Of a stretch of DNA of 64,000 bases, positions 6,982 through 19,172 are shown one piece after another (position 1 is the stretch's first letter; each line of letters starts with the position of its first letter). The notes under the pieces were generated by a model. The model did no database searches, was not told the origin of the DNA, and saw nothing but the letters and a program-made list of their open reading frames with translations. Made by a program: the position numbers and the translations under genes. The DNA is taken from NCBI RefSeq assembly GCF_003751445.1, contig NZ_RJUU01000002.1, positions 682,001 through 746,000 of the forward strand, given 5' to 3'. Origin of the DNA: Streptomyces sp. 840.1 (GTDB taxonomy: Bacteria; Actinomycetota; Actinomycetes; Streptomycetales; Streptomycetaceae).

Positions 6982-7404
6982 TTACCAGGCCGTGCGGCCG
7001 GTGAGTTCGGTGACGGGCTGAGGGGCGGCGCGGGGCAGGCCGAGCTGCCGGCGGGCCCGGTGGACGGCGGCGAGCTGGCCGGCGGCCGCGTCACCCCAGT
7101 CGAAGAGCGACAGAGCCTGCTCCGGGGTGGCCAGGACACGGGTGCGGGTTCGGCCACCGGCCGGACCGGGCCGTTCCGGGCCCGCCTCGGTGAGGGCGGC
7201 GGCATAACGCAGGTACCCGTGTGGTGCCGAGGGGTCGTTGACGTACCCGAGGAGCACCGGAGCCGCGAACGTGGCCGCACCTTCCTCCTCGGCCTCCCGG
7301 CGCAGAGTGGAGACGGCACCGCCCCGGTCCTGTTCCTCGGGTGAGCCGCCGGGAAGCGTGGCGACTCCGGTGCCGGGTTCGAGGAGCACGAGAACGCGCC
7401 CGTC
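6982..7404 (-). pseudogene. 3' half of a split tandem-NUDIX gene (C-terminal NUDIX domain)
   Basis: From the Asp codon at 7402-7404 (DGRVLVLLEPG) to the stop at 6982 this is the second half of a two-domain NUDIX protein. The first half is at 16438-17112. The domain contains LPGGSPEEQ...LRREAEEEGA, a NUDIX box one residue short of the consensus, so it may have been a non-catalytic second domain. An ATG at 7470 inside the mobile element could give a 162-residue chimeric protein whose first 22 residues are element-derived. In the rejoined gene the protein would be 364 residues. A second, intact tandem NUDIX gene lies at 17857-18969. Confidence 0.85.
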
Positions 7405-7405
7405 C
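7402..7405. repeat. GTCC at left junction of the 9-kb element
   Basis: GTCC precedes the first base of the element (GTTAT at 7406). The same four bases follow the last base of the element at 16438-16441. They are read as the crossover core shared by the two ends, or as a short target duplication. Confidence 0.8.
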
Positions 7406-7424
7406 GTTATCGCGGCAGTATGAG

Positions 7425-7469
7425 GTGTCTCAAAGATCACCGGGTTATCTGACTGCCCGGTGTGTCTCA
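7425..7469. repeat. Two GTGTCTCA copies near the left end of the element
   Basis: GTGTCTCA occurs at 7425-7432 and 7462-7469, 37 bases apart, 20-64 bases inside the left terminus. Related copies on the other strand lie just inside the right terminus (16397-16404 and the GTTGGACACA pair). They are candidate recombinase-binding sites. Confidence 0.5.
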
Positions 7470-7497
7470 TGCTGCCAGGTGGCAAGGGGTGAGTTCG

Positions 7498-8970
7498 GTG
7501 CGTACAGAAGAGGGCGGCGTTGCGGAAGCGGTGGTCGCGAGCCATCGCACGGTGGTCGAGCTGGGTGAGATAGCGGGTGTGCAGGACGCGGACGATGTGC
7601 TGCGACGGGCAGGTGTTGCGGAGGGGCAGCGATTCATTCTGGGGCCTGACGGCTCGTATGACCTGGCACTGAATCGGATGCTGCGTGATCTGCCGAGCTG
7701 GGGCGTCCCCTCCCGCAACGGCCAGGAAGCGTACTGCTCGGAGCTGATGTTGACCTGCCGCTTTCTGCACGAGGCCAGGGGCGGGAAGACGATCTGGGAG
7801 ATGGACGGCGCGGACCTGCGCGCCTTGAAACAGTCCCGGCTCTTCGCGGAGGACCCGGGCGAGCGGATCGAATTCGGCTCATGGCAGCGGTACATCGCGG
7901 CCCTGGACAAGTGGGTGGCGTGGTCTCTGGATGCCGAGATCCTGGCCGCCGAGCCGTTCCGGTACGTCGACAAGGTGGTGATGACGCCGCACGGACCCAA
8001 GCAGGTGCGGATGAACTCGGAATCGGAACCCGGCAAGGGCGGCCAGCCGGTCCGATTCCTGCCCTACGAGGACTACTTGCTCTGGCGGGACGTGGGACTG
8101 CGCGGCTTCCTTCCTGACGGCGGGCGGGACCCGAAGTGGCGAGGCCGTAACGGAGAGCGGAACGCGCTGTTCGCGGACCTCCTGGTTTGCACCGGGATGC
8201 GACTGACCGAGGCGTCGTGCTTGCTGCTGCCGGAGGTTCCGCCCCTGGCGCACGGCCAAGGCGGCTTTCGCCTTTCCAAGGCGACAACGAAGCGGACCAG
8301 GACGAGGACGGTGTATGCGCGTCGGCGCGTACTGCGGGACCTCCACCACTACATCGCGATCGAACGCGACGAGTTGGTGCAGCGCAAGCGCACGGCCGGC
8401 GTCTACGGGCGGGAGGACGGCCACCGAGTCGTACGCTCGAGCCGGCAGGCGCTGGCCGTCGAAGGTCGTTCCCGCGCCTGGACCTACGCGAGCCTCACGT
8501 ACGAGGACAGGCTCCGTCTCCTGTCAGTGGATGCCCGCGGGGCTGAGCTGGGGCCGCTGTGGCTGTGGCTGGGGGAGAGCGGACTTCCGCTGAGGAGTTC
8601 GACGTGGCAGTCGGCCTTTTGCCGCGCGAACGAACGATGCGCAGCCCTCGGCCTCGACTTCGACGTTCATCCGCACACGCTAAGGCACACGTTTGCTGTC
8701 CACATGCTGGGGCTGTTGCTCCGCCAGACCGTTCGTGCGCTGGGGATGAGGGAGGACCGCCGCTTCACTCTCGCCCAGATCAAGCGGCTGCTGATCGGCA
8801 ATCCGATGCGCAAGCTGCAGCTTCTTCTCGGGCATGCGCACGAGCACACGGTTCACCAGTACCTCGACGTGCTGGATGAGGCTCAGGAGATCGTGCTGGC
8901 AGCGTTGGCGGAGTGGGACGAACATTCCGCCGTGCTGGAGGGCCTGCAGGTTGACGAGGTGAGCCGGTGA
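7498..8970 (+). CDS. Tyrosine recombinase, first of three (TnpA-like)
   Basis: Start chosen at GTG 7498 because AAGGGGTGAG lies six bases upstream; an ATG 12 codons earlier is in frame. This gives 490 residues. The N-terminal half (SAM-like, DNA-core binding) includes a Gly/Lys-rich linker at about 170-185. The C-terminal catalytic half has the first Arg box TGMRLTEASCL, the second box HPHTLRHTFAVHML, the LLGHAHEHT box and the probable nucleophile Tyr in VHQYLDVL. All the usual R-H-x-x-R-H-Y residues therefore look present. It overlaps the next recombinase by GTGA, so translation is coupled. It probably performs strand exchange at the element ends together with its two partners. Confidence 0.9.
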   Translation: MRTEEGGVAEAVVASHRTVVELGEIAGVQDADDVLRRAGVAEGQRFILGPDGSYDLALNRMLRDLPSWGVPSRNGQEAYCSELMLTCRFLHEARGGKTIWEMDGADLRALKQSRLFAEDPGERIEFGSWQRYIAALDKWVAWSLDAEILAAEPFRYVDKVVMTPHGPKQVRMNSESEPGKGGQPVRFLPYEDYLLWRDVGLRGFLPDGGRDPKWRGRNGERNALFADLLVCTGMRLTEASCLLLPEVPPLAHGQGGFRLSKATTKRTRTRTVYARRRVLRDLHHYIAIERDELVQRKRTAGVYGREDGHRVVRSSRQALAVEGRSRAWTYASLTYEDRLRLLSVDARGAELGPLWLWLGESGLPLRSSTWQSAFCRANERCAALGLDFDVHPHTLRHTFAVHMLGLLLRQTVRALGMREDRRFTLAQIKRLLIGNPMRKLQLLLGHAHEHTVHQYLDVLDEAQEIVLAALAEWDEHSAVLEGLQVDEVSR

Positions 8971-10784
8971 GCGCACGCCGTGTCAGGTTCAGCCCTGCGG
9001 ACTCCGCACAGGCACCTGCGGCCGTGCCGGATCTGGGGCTTATCGCGTTCACTATGCCGATGCCGTCTGGACCAGGCGAGGAGGTGGACCTCTCCGATAT
9101 CGGGGTGCCCCGGCTCGTGCGGCCTTTCGCGAAGGCCGTCGTGGAAGAGGTGGAGCGGATCGAGACACACCGGAGGCGGGAAGTCCTGCGCCGGTACGTC
9201 AAGATGCTGCGGGACTTCGTGTTGTTCACCCGCGTGATGTGTCCGGAGTTCGGCGAGGAGATCGACCTGGGCGACCTGGAGCCCGACCTCCTGGACGCCT
9301 ACGAGGCGAGGCTTCCGGTGAGGCGCGAGGCCAACAGCGCCTCGCGGAGGAGGCGGATGCGGGAGGTGTGCCGCCTGTTGCAGCACACCGAGCAGTACAG
9401 CCCGGCCTCGTTCACCCTCACCTTCCGACAGCGCCTCGACCTGCCGGTCAGTGTGGAGGAGGGCTCGGAGCGGCCGCTGGACGCATATCCCTTCACTGTG
9501 TTCGACGTCCTGGAGGCCGCAGCACTGGGCGAAGTGGGAAGGATCCGAGACCGCATCCTGGAGGGTGAGCGACTGGCCGCTGCCGGCCGAGACCCCGACC
9601 TGCACGGCTGGGACGCGTTGGAGAACATCTGCTGGTACATCGCCCATCGCGGGCCGCTGGTGCCAGGGCAGCAGGACATCCCCGGGGTTCTGGAGCACGG
9701 GAGGCTGCGCCGGCTCAACGCGAGGCTGTACCTGAGCTTGAACGATGTGATCAGGTTCCAGATCCTGCTGGGCTGCCAGACGGGCATGGAACCCGAATGC
9801 ATCGGCACCCTGAAGGCCGGCTGCCTGATCAGCCCGACGAAGGGGTACGTAAGCGTCCAGTACCTCAAACGGCGGGCGCACGGTGCCTGGGACAAGTCGA
9901 TGCGCGTGCGCGACGGCGGCAACCTCCGCACGCCCGGAGGCGTGATCCGGCTCGCGATGCGGCTCGGACAGCGGGCCCGGGACATGGCGGGCGTCGATGA
10001 CCTGTTCGTCCCCGTGAATCAGATGACCGGCGAGATAGCCCCCGTCTACGGACACAGGCCCACGTCGACGACGGGTCACCGGAGGCGGTTCCTGTCCGAG
10101 TGCGGGCTGGAGTCGCTGACCGACCGGGACGGGGCGCCGATCCGGTCGGTGGACCTGCGACGGCTGCGCAAAACCTACAAGTCGAAGCTGTACCTGAGTA
10201 CTGGGGGAGTGCTGCCGGACTTCACCAGCGGACATACACCGCAGATCGCGGGCCGCCACTACGCGGACATCCCCGCCCACGACGAGATCCACGATACGGC
10301 CGTCGAGGCCGGGCTCACCCAGGCCCTCGCCGTCACTCTGCCCGCCCCCGTCGTCCTCGACGACGAGGGCAATCGCCTGGATGAGGGCGAAGGGGAACTC
10401 GCGCCCGAAGCGGTCGCCGATGCGTTGTCCGGAGCGACGGACGTGTGGGTGTCGTCCTGCACCGACTTCTTCGCCTCCCCCTGGTCGAACAAGCCGGGTG
10501 CCCCGTGCCCGGTGCCGCCGTGGGTGTGCCTGGAATGCACGAACGCGGTGTTCACCAGCCGCCACCTGCCCGCCGTTCTCTCCATCCTGGACACGATCGA
10601 GCAGCAACGCGAGGAGTTCCCCACCGCCGAGTGGACCATCCGCTTCGGCCTGGCCCACGAGCGCATCACCACCGGCGTGCTCAACCGGTTCACCGCCCGC
10701 CAGATCGCCACCGCCAAGGCGATCGCCGAGGCAGACGGCGCACGTCTGGCTCTGCCGACGGCCTTTCTGGAGACGATTCGATGA
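8967..10784 (+). CDS. Tyrosine recombinase, second of three (TnpB-like), with Cys-rich C-terminus
   Basis: 605 residues from a GTG overlapping the previous stop. The catalytic half is recognisable from GCQTGMEPECI (first box), SVDLRRLRKTYKSKL (second box, with Leu/Arg where His-x-x-Arg is usual), and SGHTPQIAGRHYADI with a probable nucleophilic Tyr. The first Arg of the catalytic set is not evident in the first box, so activity may depend on partners. A C-terminal segment with CTDFFASPW...CPVPPWVCLECTN looks like a zinc-binding knuckle. Such extensions are seen on TnpB-type recombinases of Tn554-family elements. It overlaps the third recombinase by ATGA. Confidence 0.85.
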   Translation: MSARRVRFSPADSAQAPAAVPDLGLIAFTMPMPSGPGEEVDLSDIGVPRLVRPFAKAVVEEVERIETHRRREVLRRYVKMLRDFVLFTRVMCPEFGEEIDLGDLEPDLLDAYEARLPVRREANSASRRRRMREVCRLLQHTEQYSPASFTLTFRQRLDLPVSVEEGSERPLDAYPFTVFDVLEAAALGEVGRIRDRILEGERLAAAGRDPDLHGWDALENICWYIAHRGPLVPGQQDIPGVLEHGRLRRLNARLYLSLNDVIRFQILLGCQTGMEPECIGTLKAGCLISPTKGYVSVQYLKRRAHGAWDKSMRVRDGGNLRTPGGVIRLAMRLGQRARDMAGVDDLFVPVNQMTGEIAPVYGHRPTSTTGHRRRFLSECGLESLTDRDGAPIRSVDLRRLRKTYKSKLYLSTGGVLPDFTSGHTPQIAGRHYADIPAHDEIHDTAVEAGLTQALAVTLPAPVVLDDEGNRLDEGEGELAPEAVADALSGATDVWVSSCTDFFASPWSNKPGAPCPVPPWVCLECTNAVFTSRHLPAVLSILDTIEQQREEFPTAEWTIRFGLAHERITTGVLNRFTARQIATAKAIAEADGARLALPTAFLETIR

Positions 10785-12928
10785 CCGCCGCCCCAGCGCG
10801 GAAGAAGAAGCCCGCCGCCCACCGCTACCCCCGCGACACCGACTTCGTCCTGCCCGCGGCCCTGACCCTAGGACACCGCAGTCGCGGACCCAGGCTCGGA
10901 GAAAACACCTGGGACCTAAGGGACTTCATCCCCCGAACCAGCCGGCAAAGGTTCGTCAACCTCGCTGGCGCCACCAGCGACCTCGATCGCCGCACCATGA
11001 AGGAATACCTGTACGCACGTCTGCGTGTTCCGGTCGGACGGCTGGCCAAGCCAATCAAGGTGACCTGGCTCGCGGAGGACGGACGCAACTTCCTGCGGAC
11101 CATGCAGACACTCTCCGCGATCGGCGTACCCCGACTGCAGGACCTCCGCAAGGAACACCTCGACTCCTTCCTCACCCACGTGCGTCCCTTCGGGCCGGGC
11201 ACCGTCGAAAGCCAGATCGCCACGCTCAAGACCATCGCCGTGCTCGGCGACCACCTCAGCGCCGACCGGCTCACCATGGTGCCCTGGCCCTACCGCTCGG
11301 CCAGACAGATCTCCGGGCTGCAGCCGGGGACGGAGAACACCACCGCACGTATTCCCGAGGAGATCATGCGTCCCTTCCTGACCGGCGTGGTCTTCTACGT
11401 GGAGACCGCCGCTCAGGATGTGATCACAGCCCGCCGGGAACTGGCCCGCATCGACGCGACCGAAGTTCCCAGGAGCAGCCCGGGCGGGGCCCGCCAGAAA
11501 TTCGAGCAGTTCATCGCCGAGCGCAGAGCCCAGGGCCGGGGGATCCCCGCCCTGCCGCTGGAACGCCTGGCTCGAAGGCCGGCCGCTTCCGTCATCGACG
11601 GTGTCGTGCAGGCGCCCAACCTGGCTATGGCCGAACTGCTCACCCAGGTCCGCTGCGCTTACCACCTGCTTCCTCTGCTCGAGGAGGCGGGAAGCGAGCT
11701 GGGCTACGAAGAGGGGGGCCTGCCCTTCTCCCGCGCCGACTGGCCGTCGACGGGTCGCCCGTGGCGGCCCGAGTTCAGCCGGAGCACGCTGGAGGCGGAG
11801 ACCTCGTACGTGCGCACGGCCTGCTGGGCGGCGATTGCCTACCTTTCCGGCATGCGGGACGCCGAGGTACGGGATCTGCGGCGCGACTGCGCGCGAGTGG
11901 AGACAGCTGCGGACGGCCGCCCGCGGTACAAGATCCACGGGCGGGTCTACAAGGACCGCAAGGTCACCGGTGAGGAAGCGGACTGGGTGGTGCTCGATCT
12001 CGTGCACCGGGCCGTGAAGGTCCTGCTGGCAGTCAACGACGACCCAACGCACCTCTTCGGCTATACCGCTTCCCACGGCTCCCTGGGGCTGATCAGACAG
12101 ATACCTCAGCGGCTGAACGACTTCCGGGACCACCTCAATGAGCTTTTCAGCGACGATGCGGGGCTGTTCGTTCCGGCGCCTGCCGTCACCGGCACGGATA
12201 ACCCTGATCCGCAGGACGACGCGAGGGCGGTCAGCGACACTGGGACGGTGCCGGCCGAGCCGATGGCCTGGAGGTTCGACACGCTGCAGTTCCGCCGCAC
12301 GCTCGCCTGGCACATCGCGAACCAGCCCTTCGGGATGGTGGCGGGAACTCGGCAGTACAAACACGCCAGCTTCGCGATTTTCGAGGGATACGCGGGGACC
12401 TCGGCGTCAGGCTTCGCCGACGAGGTCGAAGCCGACAAGGCCACAGCAAAGCTCGACTATGTCGAAGACCTGTACCACGACTGGAACGAAGGAGGACAGT
12501 CCGCAGGCGGCGCCACCCCCCGCATCGAGGCCGAGTTCGACCGTATCCGGGCAGAGCTCGGCGATCTGCCCGGAACGGCCGCGAGCCCCGAGCGTCTGCG
12601 CACGATGTTGCGGCACCTGACCCGCACCCTGCACCCCGGCGTTCTCAACGACTGCTTCCACCAACCGGCCACAGCCGTCTGCGAGAAGCGATCCAAAGGG
12701 CTGGGTCGTCCGCTGCCCATGCTGAACATGTGCTTGACCTGCCCGAACTCGCGTCGCTCGTCGGTCCACCTACCTAGGCTCCACCAGACGCGCGCCAGCG
12801 CGGTCAACGAACTCGGCGACGCGAAAGACCTGCCGGCCCACCAGCAAAGCGCCCTGGGCCACTTCATCGCCACGCTCGACTCGCTGATCGACGAACTTCG
12901 ACAGACCAAGAGACCGGAAACCCCTTGA
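10781..12928 (+). CDS. Tyrosine recombinase, third of three, 715 residues
   Basis: The ATG at 10781 overlaps the previous stop (ATGA), preferred over the long upstream open frame. The N-terminal 330 residues are a long DNA-binding region. The catalytic part has YLSGMRDAEVRDLRRDC (first box), a Lys-rich beta hairpin (HGRVYKDRKVTGEE), TLQFRRTLAWHIA (second box), and GTRQYKHASFAIFEGYAG, which supplies a His and a probable nucleophile Tyr. The C-terminus carries CFHQPATAVCEK and CLTCPNSRR, a second zinc-knuckle-like tail. It overlaps the TnpC-like gene by four bases. It is the largest of the trio and probably acts in the same synapse. Confidence 0.85.
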   Translation: MTAAPARKKKPAAHRYPRDTDFVLPAALTLGHRSRGPRLGENTWDLRDFIPRTSRQRFVNLAGATSDLDRRTMKEYLYARLRVPVGRLAKPIKVTWLAEDGRNFLRTMQTLSAIGVPRLQDLRKEHLDSFLTHVRPFGPGTVESQIATLKTIAVLGDHLSADRLTMVPWPYRSARQISGLQPGTENTTARIPEEIMRPFLTGVVFYVETAAQDVITARRELARIDATEVPRSSPGGARQKFEQFIAERRAQGRGIPALPLERLARRPAASVIDGVVQAPNLAMAELLTQVRCAYHLLPLLEEAGSELGYEEGGLPFSRADWPSTGRPWRPEFSRSTLEAETSYVRTACWAAIAYLSGMRDAEVRDLRRDCARVETAADGRPRYKIHGRVYKDRKVTGEEADWVVLDLVHRAVKVLLAVNDDPTHLFGYTASHGSLGLIRQIPQRLNDFRDHLNELFSDDAGLFVPAPAVTGTDNPDPQDDARAVSDTGTVPAEPMAWRFDTLQFRRTLAWHIANQPFGMVAGTRQYKHASFAIFEGYAGTSASGFADEVEADKATAKLDYVEDLYHDWNEGGQSAGGATPRIEAEFDRIRAELGDLPGTAASPERLRTMLRHLTRTLHPGVLNDCFHQPATAVCEKRSKGLGRPLPMLNMCLTCPNSRRSSVHLPRLHQTRASAVNELGDAKDLPAHQQSALGHFIATLDSLIDELRQTKRPETP

Positions 12929-13455
12929 TGGCAAGCTCTCAGCACACCCGCACCGTCTTCGCTCGGCTCAGCCGTGAGAACAGCCTGACCGACACCGACC
13001 GGGTCATCATGCGAGCGTTCGAGCAGCTGATGGACGGCCGCCCGGAAATCTCCGACGGCTCAGTCACCGTGGTGAACATTGCCGCCGAGGCCGGCATCTC
13101 CCGGGCCTCGTACTACCGATCGCCTGCCGCGGCAGCCATCAAGGAGATCCTGGCCGCCCCTGCAACTCAACGACCAGAGGTCGACGAACTCCGGAGCGAA
13201 GCGGCCCGCTTGCGCAAGGAACTACGCAGGCAACGCCGCCAAAAGGCCGAGGAGATCAGCGAACTCAGACAAACGGTCGCCGCCTACGCGAATCACATCC
13301 AGGTTCTGACCCTGCGGAACACGGAGCTGGAAGGCGAGATCGCCATTCTGCGCGGTCAGATCAAGAAAGCGACCGGGGGCACGGTCCAACCCATCCGCGC
13401 CATGGCCCCTGACGCCGGTCCACCCGCACGTACACAGCAGACACCAGCCGTGTAG
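12925..13455 (+). CDS. TnpC-like coiled-coil accessory protein
   Basis: 176 residues, ATG overlapping the upstream stop by four bases. Residues 40-70 form a helix-turn-helix-like segment (VTVVNIAAEAGISRASYYR). They are followed by a long coiled coil at about 85-150, with heptad Leu/Ile and alternating Arg/Glu. This layout matches the small TnpC protein (DUF6262-like) that accompanies TnpA and TnpB in Tn554-type elements and is thought to influence efficiency and orientation of transposition. It closes the four-gene overlapping operon. The last 25 residues are Pro/Thr-rich and probably unstructured. Confidence 0.8.
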   Translation: MMASSQHTRTVFARLSRENSLTDTDRVIMRAFEQLMDGRPEISDGSVTVVNIAAEAGISRASYYRSPAAAAIKEILAAPATQRPEVDELRSEAARLRKELRRQRRQKAEEISELRQTVAAYANHIQVLTLRNTELEGEIAILRGQIKKATGGTVQPIRAMAPDAGPPARTQQTPAV

Positions 13456-13565
13456 CCCACACCGCACTGGCCCGGAAGAAACTGCTCGACCGGGATGCGC
13501 CGTGAAGGGAATCATGAGCGAGTGACGACGTCCGAAGCAGCAGCCACCAGTTGCCAGGAGGCGCC

Positions 13566-14033
13566 TTGACCACCGAGAAGCAGACGGGCAGATGCCGAGG
13601 CTGTTACCAGGAGCGTGTACTTACGGAAGACGGCACGGTCGTACACCATGAGGTCGCCCCTTTCGGAGCTTGCGACGGCTCCGAGCGCTACCCTCTCGGT
13701 CCCAACCTACTCGGCTGCACCTGGGCCGCGAGGTACCGCGTAGATGGACGTGACCACTCACGTATCCCCTACTACGCCGATGAGGGCACCTATGCTCTGC
13801 ACGGAACCCTTTCCGAGGCACACGCCGAGGCCGAGCCCCACATCCGCGCTCGCCTCGCCGAGCTGAACAACACCACGCCCGACAGAATTCATGGCCTGAG
13901 CTTCAGCATCCGCCCAGTCACCCATAAAAGGGGCCCGGAAGACCCCTATGGCGTGTACACCAAGCCCGTACCCGAGTACACGATCCGCAAGGGTCCCCGC
14001 GGCGACAATGGCACGGCAGCCCACGCCTTTTGA
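13566..14033 (+). CDS. Hypothetical element cargo protein with N-terminal Cys motif
   Basis: TTG at 13566 is preferred because AGGAGG lies four bases upstream; a TTG at 13551 is also in frame. 155 residues. CRGCYQERVLTEDG followed by GACDGSERYPL gives three Cys, suggesting a small metal site. The middle (RYRVDGRDHSRIPYYADEG) and the charged C-terminus show no recognised fold. Codon use is less GC-biased than in the host genes. I recall similar C-x-x-C starts in actinobacterial mobile-element proteins, but assign no function. Confidence 0.6.
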   Translation: MTTEKQTGRCRGCYQERVLTEDGTVVHHEVAPFGACDGSERYPLGPNLLGCTWAARYRVDGRDHSRIPYYADEGTYALHGTLSEAHAEAEPHIRARLAELNNTTPDRIHGLSFSIRPVTHKRGPEDPYGVYTKPVPEYTIRKGPRGDNGTAAHAF

Positions 14034-14284
14034 ACCGCGCTGGACCGTCGCGGCTCACGTCTACGGCGCGGGTGCGGGCTGCCCGTGCTCACGCCGTAGA
14101 CGGCGACGTCGAACGGGCGATGAGGTCTGGGGACATTCTGGCGGCGTCCTCGGCGAGGACCGGCGAGTTGCTGACGACCGCCCGGATTCTTCTGAATCGT
14201 GACCCGGTCGAGAGTGCGGCCGAAGTCCACCGCCTCGTGGCCCAACCCACAGTTCCCGCCGAACCCACAGATAAGCCGAGTTGA
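14030..14284 (+). pseudogene. Remnant of a TPR-type regulator C-terminus
   Basis: The frame reads ARAHAVDGDVERAMRSG followed by Ala/Leu/Arg-rich helix, then RDPVESAAEVHRL. This resembles the last TPR helices and tail of streptomycete HTH-TPR regulators, but the DNA-binding and most TPR regions are missing and no convincing start is present. It lies between the cargo gene and the IS. It is most likely a decayed end left by earlier insertion or deletion. Confidence 0.4.
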
Positions 14285-14420
14285 TGCAGACGGACCGACC
14301 CACGAGTTCCCACTGAATAGGCTTCGATTTCCCTGAACCCACCGGCCTCTGCGGCCTCGGTAGTGGTGGGCTCTCGTATTCAACTGTCGTCAATTCCCAG
14401 CCGCCCCCAGCCCGCTGATG

Positions 14421-15310
14421 ACTGAGCGTTTTCGGAGTGGCCACTGATCGGGTGACGGGGCGGTGTGGGTTCGGGGTGCGCAACGGACAGGGCTCCCGTG
14501 CCGTTGAGGGAGGTGTTCGACGTCTCAACTCAGCAGCACAGGAGCCCTGTTGGGTCCATATCCTGCCGTACTCGACCTGCCTCACGCCCTGGTCGAGTGG
14601 GTCACGATGCTCATCGTCACTCGTGAAGGTGACCGCCGGTGCAAGCTTCCACCGCACCGGCGGGCGTTGATCGCACTGGTGTACCTGCGCCGCCATGAAA
14701 CGCTGGCTCGTATCACCGCGGCCTTCGGGATATCCGTCGGCACCGCCCATGCCTACGTCACCGCGGTCACCGGCCTGCTCGCCGAGCAGGCGCCCGGCCT
14801 GCTGAAGACGCTGCGCGCACACGATCCGGACTTCGTTCTCCTGGACGGCACGCTCGCCGAGTGCGACCGCGTCGGGGACGGCAGGGCCGACTACTCGTCG
14901 AAACACAAGCGGCACGGGGTGAACGTGCAGGTCGTCACAGATCCCGGCGGGGAGATCCTGTGGTTGTCGCCAGCGCTGCCGGGCCGGACCCACGATCTGA
15001 CGGCAGCCCGCACGCACAAGATCCTTCGGATCTGCGAACGCCAGGGCGTCCCGATCCTGGCCGACATGGCCTACATCGGTGCCGGCGACTGGGTCACCAC
15101 CGCCAAGCGCCGCCCGCCAGGCGGCGAACTCACACCCACCGAGCAGACCGCGAACCGGGCCCTGTCCGCAGCCCGTGCACCCGTCGAACGAGGCATGGCA
15201 CGACTGAAGTCCTGGCAGATCTTCCGCAGATCCCGCATCAGCCCCAACCGAATGAGCGTCATCGCCAGAGCCGTCCTCACCCTCGATAGGCAACGCTGAA
15301 AACGCTCACT
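14421..15310. mobile_element. IS5-type insertion sequence nested in the element
   Basis: Imperfect 17-base terminal repeats bound the unit. ACTGAGCGTTTTCGGAG is at 14421-14437, and the complement of 15294-15310 reads AGTGAGCGTTTTCAGCG, with 14 of 17 positions matching. Total length is about 890 bp with one transposase gene. A target duplication is not obvious at the edges, so the outermost base is uncertain by one or two positions. Confidence 0.75.
14550..15299 (+). CDS. IS5-family DDE transposase
   Basis: 249 residues from a TTG at 14550 ([17 protein letters not shown]). An N-terminal helix-turn-helix (about 40-80, [16 protein letters not shown]) precedes a DDE domain. The first Asp is in [11 protein letters not shown], the second in [11 protein letters not shown] and the Glu in [13 protein letters not shown]. 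All three catalytic residues and the length agree with an intact single-ORF IS5-group transposase. The stop at 15297-15299 falls inside the right terminal repeat. Confidence 0.88.
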
Positions 15311-15376
15311 GTGTGTGATCTCCCGCAGGTCTGCGGGCTGGGTGAGCAAGTATCTGATGATCGAGTCATCGTTCGC

Positions 15377-15407
15377 TTGACTTGGTGCGGAGCCCCGTCA
15401 CTATGAA
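15377..15407 (+). promoter_or_regulatory. Possible promoter for the cargo gene at 15435
   Basis: TTGACT at 15377-15382 and TATGAA at 15402-15407 resemble -35 and -10 hexamers, with a 19-base spacer that is longer than ideal. The pair is 28 bases upstream of the start codon and 67 bases right of the IS. Confidence 0.35.
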
Positions 15408-15434
15408 GACTCGGTGCCGGAGACAAGGGGAACC

Positions 15435-16070
15435 ATGACGCACAGCCAAGAAACCCTGGCCCAGCGGGGAGATGTCCTGTCGATCTACGTGGAGTTTCTT
15501 ACGGGCTCGGCTGCCTGCGGGGATATCTGGGAGTGGCTGGATCGAGCAGAGGCCGCCGGCGAACCCCGCTCAACCGAGAACTCGCTCCTCCTCCAAGAGT
15601 TTCGGGGTCACCTCACGGCGCCCGGTACGGACCCGGCTTGGCGTGAAGTCAGCACGCACACGGTCTTCCGAACCATGCTCTATGGAGGGAAGAACAACAC
15701 TGGGGTCATCACCGTGGCAGCAACTGTTGCGGGGATGACTGTGACCGCTGCGGTTCTGCCCTTCATTCAGTCACTCGCCACACAGGCCGGGCAACGGGCA
15801 TTTGAAGCAGCAAGGGCGACTACCCGCCGTGTGATCAGCCAATATGCGGACGACGCCCCAGCCATTCATCGGCGTGCGCAGGTAGTCGTCGAAGAGACGG
15901 CCGCTGGTCTGCGCTTCATTGTGCCGCCGCGTCTCCCCGACGCGGCGCTGGCCGCCCTGGCCTCAACTGACCTCGAAGCCCTGGCAGCCCCTGATGAGGC
16001 TAATGGGACCGTGACTATCTACTGGGACGAGGGAACGAAGGAATGGAGGCGTCACGTCAGCAATGGCTGA
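15435..16070 (+). CDS. Hypothetical protein with one membrane segment (element cargo)
   Basis: 211 residues from an ATG with AAGGGGAA upstream; an in-frame GTG at 15414 lacks a ribosome site. Residues 1-85 are acidic-helical (DIWEWLDRAEAAGEP). One hydrophobic stretch at about 92-116 (GVITVAATVAGMTVTAAVL) is a probable membrane segment. It is followed by a basic helix and a C-terminal alpha/beta region ending in a Trp/Tyr-rich strand (TVTIYWDEGTKEWRR). The base composition is visibly less GC-rich than that of the flanking chromosome, consistent with acquired DNA. Family not recognised. Confidence 0.6.
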   Translation: MTHSQETLAQRGDVLSIYVEFLTGSAACGDIWEWLDRAEAAGEPRSTENSLLLQEFRGHLTAPGTDPAWREVSTHTVFRTMLYGGKNNTGVITVAATVAGMTVTAAVLPFIQSLATQAGQRAFEAARATTRRVISQYADDAPAIHRRAQVVVEETAAGLRFIVPPRLPDAALAALASTDLEALAAPDEANGTVTIYWDEGTKEWRRHVSNG

Positions 16071-16130
16071 GCAGGTGCGCTAACTAACGACCGGCGGCGG
16101 TCGTCCCATCGGTACAGCGGTTGGCGCTGA

Positions 16131-16331
16131 GAACGATCATGGCCGGGACGTGAGAGTGCTGACGCGGTTCTCGTACTCGCGGCGGGCCTTGCGCTGAGCC
16201 GGGATCGCCGGCGTGCCCGGGCCACCGTCGAGCGGCTGGCAGCGGGCGAGGAGTCGGTGGCGGCCGAGGTCGACGAAGTGTTGTGGTGGCACCGGCGCAT
16301 GGCCGAGTTGCGCACGGACTGCCGTCGGTGA
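16131..16331 (+). pseudogene. C-terminal remnant of an unidentified protein
   Basis: The open frame reads VLVLAAGLALSRDRRRARATV followed by EEVDEVLWWHRRMAELR-type helix to a stop at 16331. It begins with a hydrophobic stretch and continues as a charged coil, but has no plausible start codon and is cut off by a stop at 16128. It is probably the tail of a small membrane-anchored protein whose 5' part was lost. The NUDIX half-gene also reads through this stretch on the other strand before stopping. Confidence 0.35.
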
Positions 16332-16360
16332 ATAGGTGACCGCTCGCAGGATTCGCAGGC

Positions 16361-16420
16361 GTTGGACACAGGGGTCGCCGCCGCCTCCGTTTCAGACGAG
16401 ACACTTCAGGGTTGGACACA
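16361..16420. repeat. GTTGGACACA direct repeat near the right end of the element
   Basis: GTTGGACACA is at 16361-16370 and again at 16411-16420, with CGAGACAC (16397-16404) between. On the opposite strand these read TGTGTCC and GTGTCTCG, close to the GTGTCTCA copies inside the left end. They are probable recombinase-binding repeats. Confidence 0.5.
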
Positions 16421-16437
16421 CGTAGCGCTTGCATAAC

Positions 16438-16441
16438 GTCC
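16438..16441. repeat. GTCC at right junction of the 9-kb element
   Basis: GTCC follows the terminal ATAAC of the element and matches 7402-7405. It encodes part of the Asp codon at which the split NUDIX gene rejoins. Confidence 0.8.
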
Positions 16442-17112
16442 GGTGCGAAGAGCCATCCCCACACCTGCTTCACGGTGAGATCCTGCGGCGTCGCGCCGTC
16501 GTGCCACGGGTAGCGGCAGACGGGGCGGGCGGTCCGCAGGACGCCGAGGCGGTCCAGGACGGTCGGCGCGATCGGGAGACCGTTCGCCAGGAGTACGGTG
16601 CCGGCGGCGTTGATCCGGGCGCGCAGCGCGGACAGGGCGCGGCGGGCATCGGACGGCGCGAGCAGTTCGGGCAGCCGTGCGGGCTCGATGAACTCGACGC
16701 CGGTGATTTCGCTCGGGGGCAGACGGATCTCGGAGATCCGGGCGTCGTCCCAGGTGCCGCCGTCGAAGACGTGCAGGATCTCGCCGGGAAACCGCACAGC
16801 CGGGGCGGCGCCGGTGCTGTCGGCGCTGATCCAGTCGACGGCCAGGCCCTGATCGATGACAGCGGTGACACCGAGCTCCTCCATCAGCTCGCGGGCGGCA
16901 CCGTGTGCGGGGGACTCGCCCGCGTCAACACCGCCTCCCGGCAGGAGACAGGTGGCGAGATAGTCCACGTGCTGCACCAGAACGTGTCCGAACGTGTTCG
17001 TGATCAGCACAGAGGTCCCGGCCCACAGGGCGGCAGAGGCACGCAGCGCCCCGTACTCCTCGTCGGTCATGGAGGAGCCGGGCAGATCGTCGGGGGTTGG
17101 CTGCTGCGCCAT
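16438..17112 (-). pseudogene. 5' half of a split tandem-NUDIX gene (N-terminal NUDIX domain)
   Basis: ATG at 17112, 225 codons up to the Asp at 16438-16440. The first NUDIX domain is complete: LLPGGGVDAGES...RELMEELGV matches the G-x5-E-x7-RE-x2-EE-x-G box near residues 56-80. After the end of this domain (VKQVWGWLFAPD) the frame continues into the mobile element and stops at 16084, adding about 117 unrelated Arg/Pro-rich residues. The normal continuation is at 6982-7404. The N-terminal domain could still fold and hydrolyse a nucleoside diphosphate-linked substrate; the substrate is unknown. Confidence 0.85.
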
Positions 17113-17856: not shown

Positions 17857-18969
17857 TCAGCCGTTCCCCCAGCCCCAGGAGTCGAAGTAGGCGGTCGTGC
17901 CGGTCAGCCGGGCCGTCATCACCGCCTCCAGGCGGGCGTAGTCCTGCGAGGGCATGAGCGGTTCCCATTCCTTCAACGTGAGGACACGCAGCGCGTCGTG
18001 CTCGTCCGGGTCCAGGACGATGGACCGGATCTGCGCGTCGGAGAGCCGGCCGCCGTCGAAGACACACCCGGTCGTACTGAACGGCCAGCCGCCCCCGGGC
18101 GGTCCGAAGACCGAGGCGAGCAGTCGGGGCGGCCCTGCCACGTCGAGCCCGGTCTCCTCGCGGCATTCGCGCTGGGCCGTTTCCCACGGCCGCTCGCCGT
18201 GGTCCATCGTGCCGCCGGGAAACTGCCAGGGGTGCGCCTGGGAGTAGGTGGCCCGCAACTGCACCGGACGGTTGTCCCGGTCGGTGAAGAAGATGAAGGC
18301 CGATCCGGTCGACTTGGGTACGGACGACGCGTACTCCTCCGGCGGCAGCAGTACGCGGGCGGTGCGCGGCTCAGCGATCCGGCCGGCTGCCTGCCCGGCC
18401 ATCGCGCGGACCCGGACTTCCGGCCCGCCCGACTGGAGCGGGATGGCGCGGGCGGTCGGGACCGGGTCGCTGCGATCGGCGTCCGGGGCGTACGGGATCA
18501 GGTCGTCCGGGTCCTGGAAGTGCAGGGCCAGGTGCCGGCCGCTGCGGTATGCGTCGAGCCCGGCCCGGCAGTAGGCGACCATGGGCGAGACCAGGTGCTC
18601 CAGCCGGAACCAGGCCATGCCGTCGCACACCGCAGGTTCCAGAATGCGGGGCGAGCCCTGCCAGTTGAGAACCTCGAAGAAGAACCCGACCCGGGCCGCG
18701 GTGCCGGCCGGAGCACGGTGGTGCACCGCGACCGCGAAGCTGACGTGGGCCGGGTCGATCAGCACCCCCGTCTCCTCGCGCGCTTCGCGGATCAGCGCTT
18801 CGCGGATGTCCTCGCCGTCCTCCGTATGCCCGGACGGAAGATGCCAGAGGCCCGCCGCGTAGACGTCTCCGGCGCGGCGCGACAGCAGGATCTCCGGTCC
18901 TGCGGGTGTTTCGCGGCGCAGGATCAGGTGGACGTCGACGGGCTGCTTGTAGCGCTGCTCGCGGGTCAC
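17857..18969 (-). CDS. Tandem NUDIX hydrolase (two intact NUDIX boxes)
   Basis: GTG at 18969 is preferred over 18987 because GGGAGG lies nine bases upstream. 370 residues. The first domain (about 1-165) has LPSGHTEDGED...REAREETGV. The second (about 215-350) has FPGGTMDHGER...RECREETGL. Both contain the REx2EExG core, so both may bind metal and hydrolyse nucleotide-linked pyrophosphates. The Trp/Tyr-rich C-terminus (TTAYFDSWGWGNG) is unusual. The architecture parallels the NUDIX gene disrupted next door, although the two differ in sequence. Substrates cannot be deduced. Confidence 0.85.
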   Translation of the reverse strand: MTREQRYKQPVDVHLILRRETPAGPEILLSRRAGDVYAAGLWHLPSGHTEDGEDIREALIREAREETGVLIDPAHVSFAVAVHHRAPAGTAARVGFFFEVLNWQGSPRILEPAVCDGMAWFRLEHLVSPMVAYCRAGLDAYRSGRHLALHFQDPDDLIPYAPDADRSDPVPTARAIPLQSGGPEVRVRAMAGQAAGRIAEPRTARVLLPPEEYASSVPKSTGSAFIFFTDRDNRPVQLRATYSQAHPWQFPGGTMDHGERPWETAQRECREETGLDVAGPPRLLASVFGPPGGGWPFSTTGCVFDGGRLSDAQIRSIVLDPDEHDALRVLTLKEWEPLMPSQDYARLEAVMTARLTGTTAYFDSWGWGNG

Positions 18970-19172
18970 GACACACCTCCCGGCCACCGGGCGAGCACGG
19001 CCGCGTTCACGTCGGCCGGATCGACGTGCGCCGGGGCCGGTACGACGGGGTCGGCGGCAATTCCGCCGGGAGGTGTGATCACTGTGTGTCTCCGTGGGAG
19101 GGGTGGCTCGTCCGGGAGCCGGGTCGGTTTGCGGCGGGGCTGACGGCTCGCTGCCCCACGGCCGGTCTCACG

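Follow-up and report, generated by a model that had tools for sequence, protein, structure and literature searches.

We analysed a window of 64,000 bp from Streptomyces sp. 840.1 (NZ_RJUU01000002.1, positions 682,001 to 746,000), which lies inside a 1.46-Mb contig of an 8.84 Mb genome listed as 4 contigs and 100% complete. Between positions 6982 and 17112 the window holds, on the minus strand, the two halves of a double-NUDIX gene, separated by a mobile element (Table 1). Both halves are where the original prediction, made from the letters of the window, had placed them, and its statement that removal of the insert restores a protein of 364 residues was borne out. With the insert and one repeat copy taken out, the joined flanks give an open frame of 364 codons reading ...WGWLFAPDGRVLVLLEPG...

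Matches of any length to the joined protein were found in 172 of the 199 genomes searched, full-length homologues included. Continuous homologues occur in genomes G023 (75%, residues 5-364), G065 (72%, residues 2-360) and G004 (65%). A tblastn search showed that the junction is spanned continuously in 26 of 27 homologue loci, the exception being L020, where the match stops at residue 196. The uninterrupted gene thus exists, and the two halves are not normally separate genes.

The prediction described an element of 9,032 bp at 7406-16437, ending in GTTAT and ATAAC and flanked by GTCC. GTCC is present on both sides, but the repeated unit is the hexamer CGTCCG. In a BLASTN comparison with the intact locus L069, window positions 6983-7406 match 8031-8454 and positions 16437-17094 match 8449-9106, so that the flank matches overlap by exactly 6 bp (8449-8454). 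The same overlap is found in L070 (7681-7686), and in a third locus, L071, the match of the right flank starts 89 bp in, short of the insertion site. We aligned 17 of the 27 loci over the site and dropped four that were mis-aligned (L012, L014, L015 and L019); all 13 clean alignments have exactly 6 bp between the flanks. The tetramer was dropped as the duplicated unit in favour of CGTCCG on account of the flank overlaps and this spacer. The hexamer at the 13 intact sites is CGTCCG (7), CGTCGG (4), CGTCTG (1) or CGTCCT (1). It covers the Pro-Asp-Gly codons of a NUDIX strand and is conserved for that reason.

Each boundary of the element is therefore off by one base in the prediction, which was otherwise right; it did not name the kind of element. 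The body measures 9,030 bp and the net insertion is 9,036 bp, four more than the earlier 9,032. GTTAT and ATAAC are present as letters, but their outer G and C belong to the hexamer because the repeat is 6 bp long, and the conserved end starts at TTAT because the preceding base varies in related elements. With the boundaries shifted by one base to the 6-bp repeat, the limits and the pre-insertion site can indeed be read from a single genome. For two hexamers drawn at random from the window, the probability of being equal is p = 0.00074. Together with the frame and the NUDIX strand, which agree with the homologues, this argues that repeat and junction are not due to chance.

The C-terminal NUDIX half on its own (open reading frame (ORF) 6982-7770, minus strand) has no Pfam match. 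Its open frame reaches approximately 360 bp into the left end of the element, so an outward promoter could still express a fusion. The adjoining ORF at 17857-18987 (minus strand, 376 aa) has two NUDIX-box-like motifs in its translation, and a second double-NUDIX gene may thus stand in tandem with the interrupted one. In genome G011 (contig C42, locus L089) an intact double-NUDIX homologue lies approximately 5.5 kb from a protein C fragment at the contig end.

Table 1. Features of the interrupted gene and the inserted element, in window coordinates
Feature	Position	Strand	Basis
C-terminal part of the double-NUDIX gene (second NUDIX-like domain)	6982..7406	-	tblastn, residues 224-364 of the joined protein; 75% DNA identity to L069
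attL hexamer CGTCCG	7401..7406		flank overlap in intact homologues; termini in relatives
Mobile element body, 9,030 bp, termini TTAT...ATAA	7407..16436	+	conserved ends in relatives; empty-site overlap
Left terminal motif TTAT-N15-TGTCTCA, probable recombinase site	7407..7432	+	conserved in relatives
Direct repeat of the TTAT...TGTCTCA motif, displaced inwards by 38 bp	7445..7469	+	same spacing in relatives
Protein A, tyrosine recombinase, 502 aa from this start	7462..8970	+	PF00589, E 1.1e-10
Protein B, recombinase fold, 605 aa	8967..10784	+	motif alignment; AlphaFold2 (AF2) model and Foldseek
Protein C, large recombinase, 715 aa	10781..12928	+	residues R359, R505/R506, H528, Y537
Protein D, small protein, 176 aa	12925..13455	+	helix-turn-helix (HTH)-like N-terminus (AGISRASYYRS), coiled-coil-like C-terminus
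Cargo ORF, 160 aa	13551..14033	+	no family match
Insertion sequence of the IS5 family within the cargo, with transposase ORF 14550-15299	14423..15311	+	ends from DNA matches
Cargo ORF, 218 aa	15414..16070	+	no family match
Right terminal motif, resembling the left motif in inverted, imperfect form	16414..16436	-	end comparison
attR hexamer CGTCCG	16437..16442		flank overlap in intact homologues; termini in relatives
N-terminal part of the double-NUDIX gene (first NUDIX domain)	16437..17112	-	Pfam NUDIX PF00293, E 3.1e-13 (ORF 16084-17112); 82% DNA identity to L069

Recombination proteins and element ends

Proteins A, B, C and D are encoded in an operon-like run that is followed by cargo, the whole lying between short imperfect inverted ends. 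Protein A is by its residues a complete tyrosine recombinase: R247, K277, H405xxR408, H458 and Y467 are invariant in 13 sequences. Protein B lacks the first catalytic Arg, reading TGMEPE there, and the box-II His, and keeps R401, H423 and Y432. The best Foldseek match of its AF2 model is Cre (prob 1.00, E 3.1e-3, TM score on the target 0.58), and the model indicates a recombinase-fold accessory protein. The AF2 models are of no more than fair quality (mean pLDDT 69.7 for B and 66.7 for C, from 9 sequences each), and Foldseek searches with both gave no match at E 0.001 or better. Profile comparisons of A with B and of A with C gave no match, and searches of PDB sequences with the B and C profiles returned nothing convincing.

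Protein C also lacks the box-II His. In a profile comparison it matches IntB of SE-6945, a strand-biased circularizing integrative element (SE), over the full length (613 columns, prob 90.9, E 1.1e-6). Protein D, a small protein of DNA-binding type, has only sub-cutoff matches in Pfam. It holds the position of TnpC, GinD and Srap in the systems compared below, and a weak 35-column match to Srap covers its HTH-like region (E 0.0042, prob 8).

Relatives share a left end that reads TTAT...TGTC[T/G], and the right end is its imperfect inverse. A second copy of the motif at 38-bp spacing is present in 6 of 11 scanned elements, those of the window, G225, G344, G350, G276 and Rhodococcus opacus. Near the right end, at 16107-16270, lies a stretch of approximately 150 bp with copies of roughly 80-88% identity in a dozen or more Streptomyces genomes; perhaps it is a captured gene fragment.

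Related elements and their hexamers

Streptomyces, Rhodococcus and Mycolicibacterium have proteins resembling B at 44-58%; the figure is 26-37% in other Streptomyces and approximately 31-36% in Alphaproteobacteria. Within the genus, 8 of 392 genomes matched protein C (E <= 1e-60), a count that includes the window's own genome and two fragments; within the class, 5 of 394 did so (E <= 1e-25; own genome counted). Phage records gave 1 partial match to protein C, and a scan of IMG/VR with protein B gave none. Among the 120 listed of 145 B homologues in public sources, those with a name are mostly called hypothetical protein.

Other lineages likewise keep to one gene each. The elements of G344, G350 and G276 and a remnant in G335 sit in a gene that we take, from its peptide, to be HNH-like. 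One element of 14,258 bp occurs in four mycobacterial genomes (G643, G682, G721 and, on a plasmid, M. chubuense, L065) and always occupies the same position within a related gene, presumably of the PP-loop type given its SYGxGxDST motif. Any two of these copies differ by 1-9 mismatches, and their hexamer pairs are four different ones. The L065 copy has merA and merB annotated inside it, and the near-identity of the copies points to a mercury-resistance transposon that spread recently among the four genomes. A 9,701-bp element with genes A-B-C-D and merBA cargo (L123-L128) is found in Sinorhizobium (two plasmids), Aminobacter, Paracoccus and Bradyrhizobium. The insertion sites on the five alphaproteobacterial plasmids are similar, four beside an annotated DUF3991/toprim gene and the fifth in an unannotated record. 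On pNL1 (L120, 6176-11573) genes A-B-C, with no D annotated, are flanked by a pair of ORFs, each annotated as zincin-like metallopeptidase; the ends were not found. Genome G225 is of the same genus as the window, its contig being the Streptomyces sp. OfavH-34-F record of L062; on contig C111 (L080, L081) a second, distant element of this general type (27% in A) lies beyond the first one in opposite orientation.

We could read the left and the right end of 17 elements. The hexamers are equal in 11: the window (CGTCCG), G225 (CGCAGG), G046 (CGGTGA), G344 and G276 (both GGTCGT), G350 (TGTCGT), G108 (AAGGCC), G721 (CCACCG), pSR2 (ACGCCG), and pSinA and pSinB (both ACGCCA). They differ by 1-3 bases in six, given here as left/right: G643 (CGACCG/GCACGG), G682 (CAACGT/GCACGG), M. 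chubuense (CCACGG/CGACTG), R. opacus (CCGCGC/CGCCGC), Paracoccus versutus pTAV4 (GCGCCG/ACGCCG) and Bradyrhizobium betae (ACGCCG/ACGGAG). Not among the 17 are S. europaeiscabiei, Streptomyces NBC_01340 and G628, in all three of which no right end was found, G335, which has lost its left part, G011, where a fragment stands at the end of a contig, and further pNL1, Shinella, Agrobacterium and the more distant element of G225.

In all five unequal elements that allow a test (R. opacus, B. betae, P. versutus, G643 and G682) the attL hexamer is that of the target and the attR hexamer is foreign. For the first three we used nine unoccupied homologues, picked by coverage, and the site measures exactly 6 bp in every one. 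Its hexamer equals attL exactly in 1 of 3 cases for R. opacus, 3 of 3 for B. betae and 2 of 3 for P. versutus; none of the nine equals attR. The inexact sites are one base (two of R. opacus) or two bases (one of P. versutus) from attL, and each is further from attR. For the PP-loop type gene, nine loci found with its right half were scanned for the motif. Six, all free of the element, gave it, each with Ser-Thr though Cys was allowed; one of the six, L117, comes from a broken gene, and the three without the motif include the interrupted G643 copy. In the printed flanks of G643 and G682, compared by eye, it is attL and not attR that fits the Ser-Thr codons when read in the host frame. Their attR, GCACGG, is the hexamer that L117 carries, with another Ser codon. 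The attR of pTAV4, ACGCCG, is likewise the attL of the sister copies pSR2 and B. betae.

Should attR carry the hexamer of the donor, the equal hexamers of the window would mean that the donor site also had CGTCCG. This hexamer is found at 7 of 13 intact NUDIX sites vs 0.0013 per position in the window, which favours a NUDIX donor approximately 400-fold over a random one. By this rule the last address of the element had the same hexamer and was probably the same NUDIX site.

Placement among known systems and alternative explanations

Based on these observations, we suggest that the element is probably a site-preferring tyrosine-recombinase transposon of an actinobacterial and alphaproteobacterial lineage, built like SEs, with the target hexamer at attL and the donor hexamer at attR. 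A circle bringing along the hexamer beside its left end would recombine with the target across the 6-bp spacer. The target's own hexamer would then stay at attL, on the side of gene A, and that of the previous address would go to attR. By analogy, all four proteins may cooperate, as passages of the literature describe for GInts (genomic islands with three integrases), where all four gin proteins are needed (PMC5385486), and for SEs, whose proteins act together (PMC10214605). The limits, the genes, the 6-bp spacer and, in the five relatives open to a test, the target hexamer at attL are seen in the sequence; we infer the circular intermediate, the order of strand exchange, whether the donor copy stays, and that the window element last left a further copy of this NUDIX site.

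The likeness to SEs such as SE-6945 and SE-6283 (PMC9345347, PMC10214605) begins with gene order: a complete recombinase, a recombinase-fold protein that is not catalytic, a large recombinase and a small protein, corresponding to intA-tfp-intB-srap, where tfp lacks RHRY. The sizes are similar: 408/581/720/135 aa in the pSEA1 element next to blaGMA-1, taken from that cargo to be SE-6945, vs 502/605/715/176 aa here. Protein C, which lacks the box-II His, is homologous to IntB, and the imperfect inverted ends, the 6-bp spacer and the few preferred sites are shared. So is the assignment of attL to the target and attR to the donor, seen here in the relatives and shown experimentally for SE-6945 in Vibrio and Escherichia coli (PMC9345347). 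However, SEs have been described from Gammaproteobacteria only (PMC10214605), whereas this element is from an actinomycete and has relatives in Alphaproteobacteria. We have not filed it as an SE because homology to SE Tfp is undetected and the hosts differ. We rather place it as a variant of the SE/GInt/Tn554 kind outside Gammaproteobacteria.

Tn554 shares the 6-bp footprint, the site preference and a small TnpC-type protein (PMC3414803, PMC10214605, in part), but by description it has two recombinases plus TnpC and no counterpart of B, whereas the window element has three recombinase-type proteins plus D. RIT elements also have three adjacent recombinase-type genes, but their proteins are 315-410 aa long, all with the catalytic Tyr, and their terminal repeats are 34 bp (passage of PMC10214605); here proteins A to C have 502, 605 and 715 aa and the ends share short motifs only.

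A GInt in the strict sense (ginABCD) comes closest among the alternatives. It would likewise have a four-gene recombination operon at one end, then cargo and a short far (3') end, with a 6-nt staggered exchange; GinC lacks the first Arg as protein B does, and GinD resembles TnpC (both from passages of PMC5385486). By description, however, the first Arg is missing from the third protein in GInts but from the second here, and we consider this identity rather unlikely. The words Actinobacteria and Streptomyces are absent from the main text of PMC5385486.

A requirement for core identity, with integration only where the target hexamer equals that of the circle, would agree with most of the pairs being equal. 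The six unequal pairs refute its strict form, which makes it improbable, but a preference for identity is possible; in GInts, a better match raised integration tenfold (PMC5385486). The equal pairs would also fit an ordinary 6-bp target-site duplication of the DDE type, the unequal hexamers being later mutations. This is largely contradicted and very improbable. The mycobacterial copies differ by only 1-9 of 14,258 bp, yet their hexamers differ by 2-3 of 6 bases in three of four; in three of the six unequal elements (G643, G682 and pTAV4) the attR hexamer occurs as a target hexamer elsewhere; and the element encodes recombinases, its sole DDE enzyme lying in the nested insertion sequence. We found no point in favour of two natural NUDIX genes that were never one, or of an assembly artefact, and with the continuous homologues, the exact 6-bp overlap and the position inside a large contig either has next to no probability.

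Several points weigh against our reading of the element as an SE-like transposon with a donor footprint. A circle, an empty site in culture and transposition are predictions from the sequence, and because the two window hexamers are equal, the donor and target rule cannot be read in the window itself. The 17 elements are not independent: four copies are one mycobacterial element and five are one alphaproteobacterial element, leaving about 8 lineages by our own grouping. The sixth unequal element, that of M. chubuense, gave no assignment. The nine unoccupied homologues were picked from lists of 25, 75 and 448 records, and three of their hexamers equal neither attL nor attR exactly. The elements nearest to that of the window, in G225 and G046, are inserted in other genes. 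Protein B showed no detectable similarity to SE Tfp in a comparison of profiles from 20 and 18 sequences (21 columns, P 0.059), and protein A none of significance to IntA.

More tentatively, these elements may form a separate actinobacterial and alphaproteobacterial SE-like lineage that moves by strand-biased copy-out/copy-in with a donor footprint. The previous address of every copy would then be written beside its right end, chains of transfers would be readable in single genomes, and the double-NUDIX gene would be the home site of the window's clade. A mobile element inside a gene is ordinary, whereas a donor-footprint rule in Actinobacteria and Alphaproteobacteria is not; so far the rule comes from a few Vibrio elements (passages of PMC9345347 and PMC10214605). 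It is now readable in Rhodococcus, mycobacteria, Bradyrhizobium and Paracoccus, where unoccupied sites serve as controls, and can be tested on existing genomes. A single genome thereby becomes informative on the earlier location of an element, proteins mostly called hypothetical gain limits and a likely role, and Streptomyces geneticists gain a testable reaction model. Among the listed titles, abstract beginnings and passages on such elements in Streptomyces, only PMC3414803 surfaced, which treats actinobacterial two-recombinase elements related to Tn554. Passages of PMC5704250 and PMC8138268 hold nothing on such elements in Streptomyces, and GInts appear in PMC5704250 in the reference list only.

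Cargo

The two cargo ORFs gave no match in Pfam, NCBIfam, PHROGs or PADLOC. In a near-DNA search of plasmids with the whole element, only the nested insertion sequence matched among the matches listed (15 of 64 records). Plasmids of Streptomyces, that of S. tendae among them, bear close copies (up to 93%) of this IS5-family sequence.

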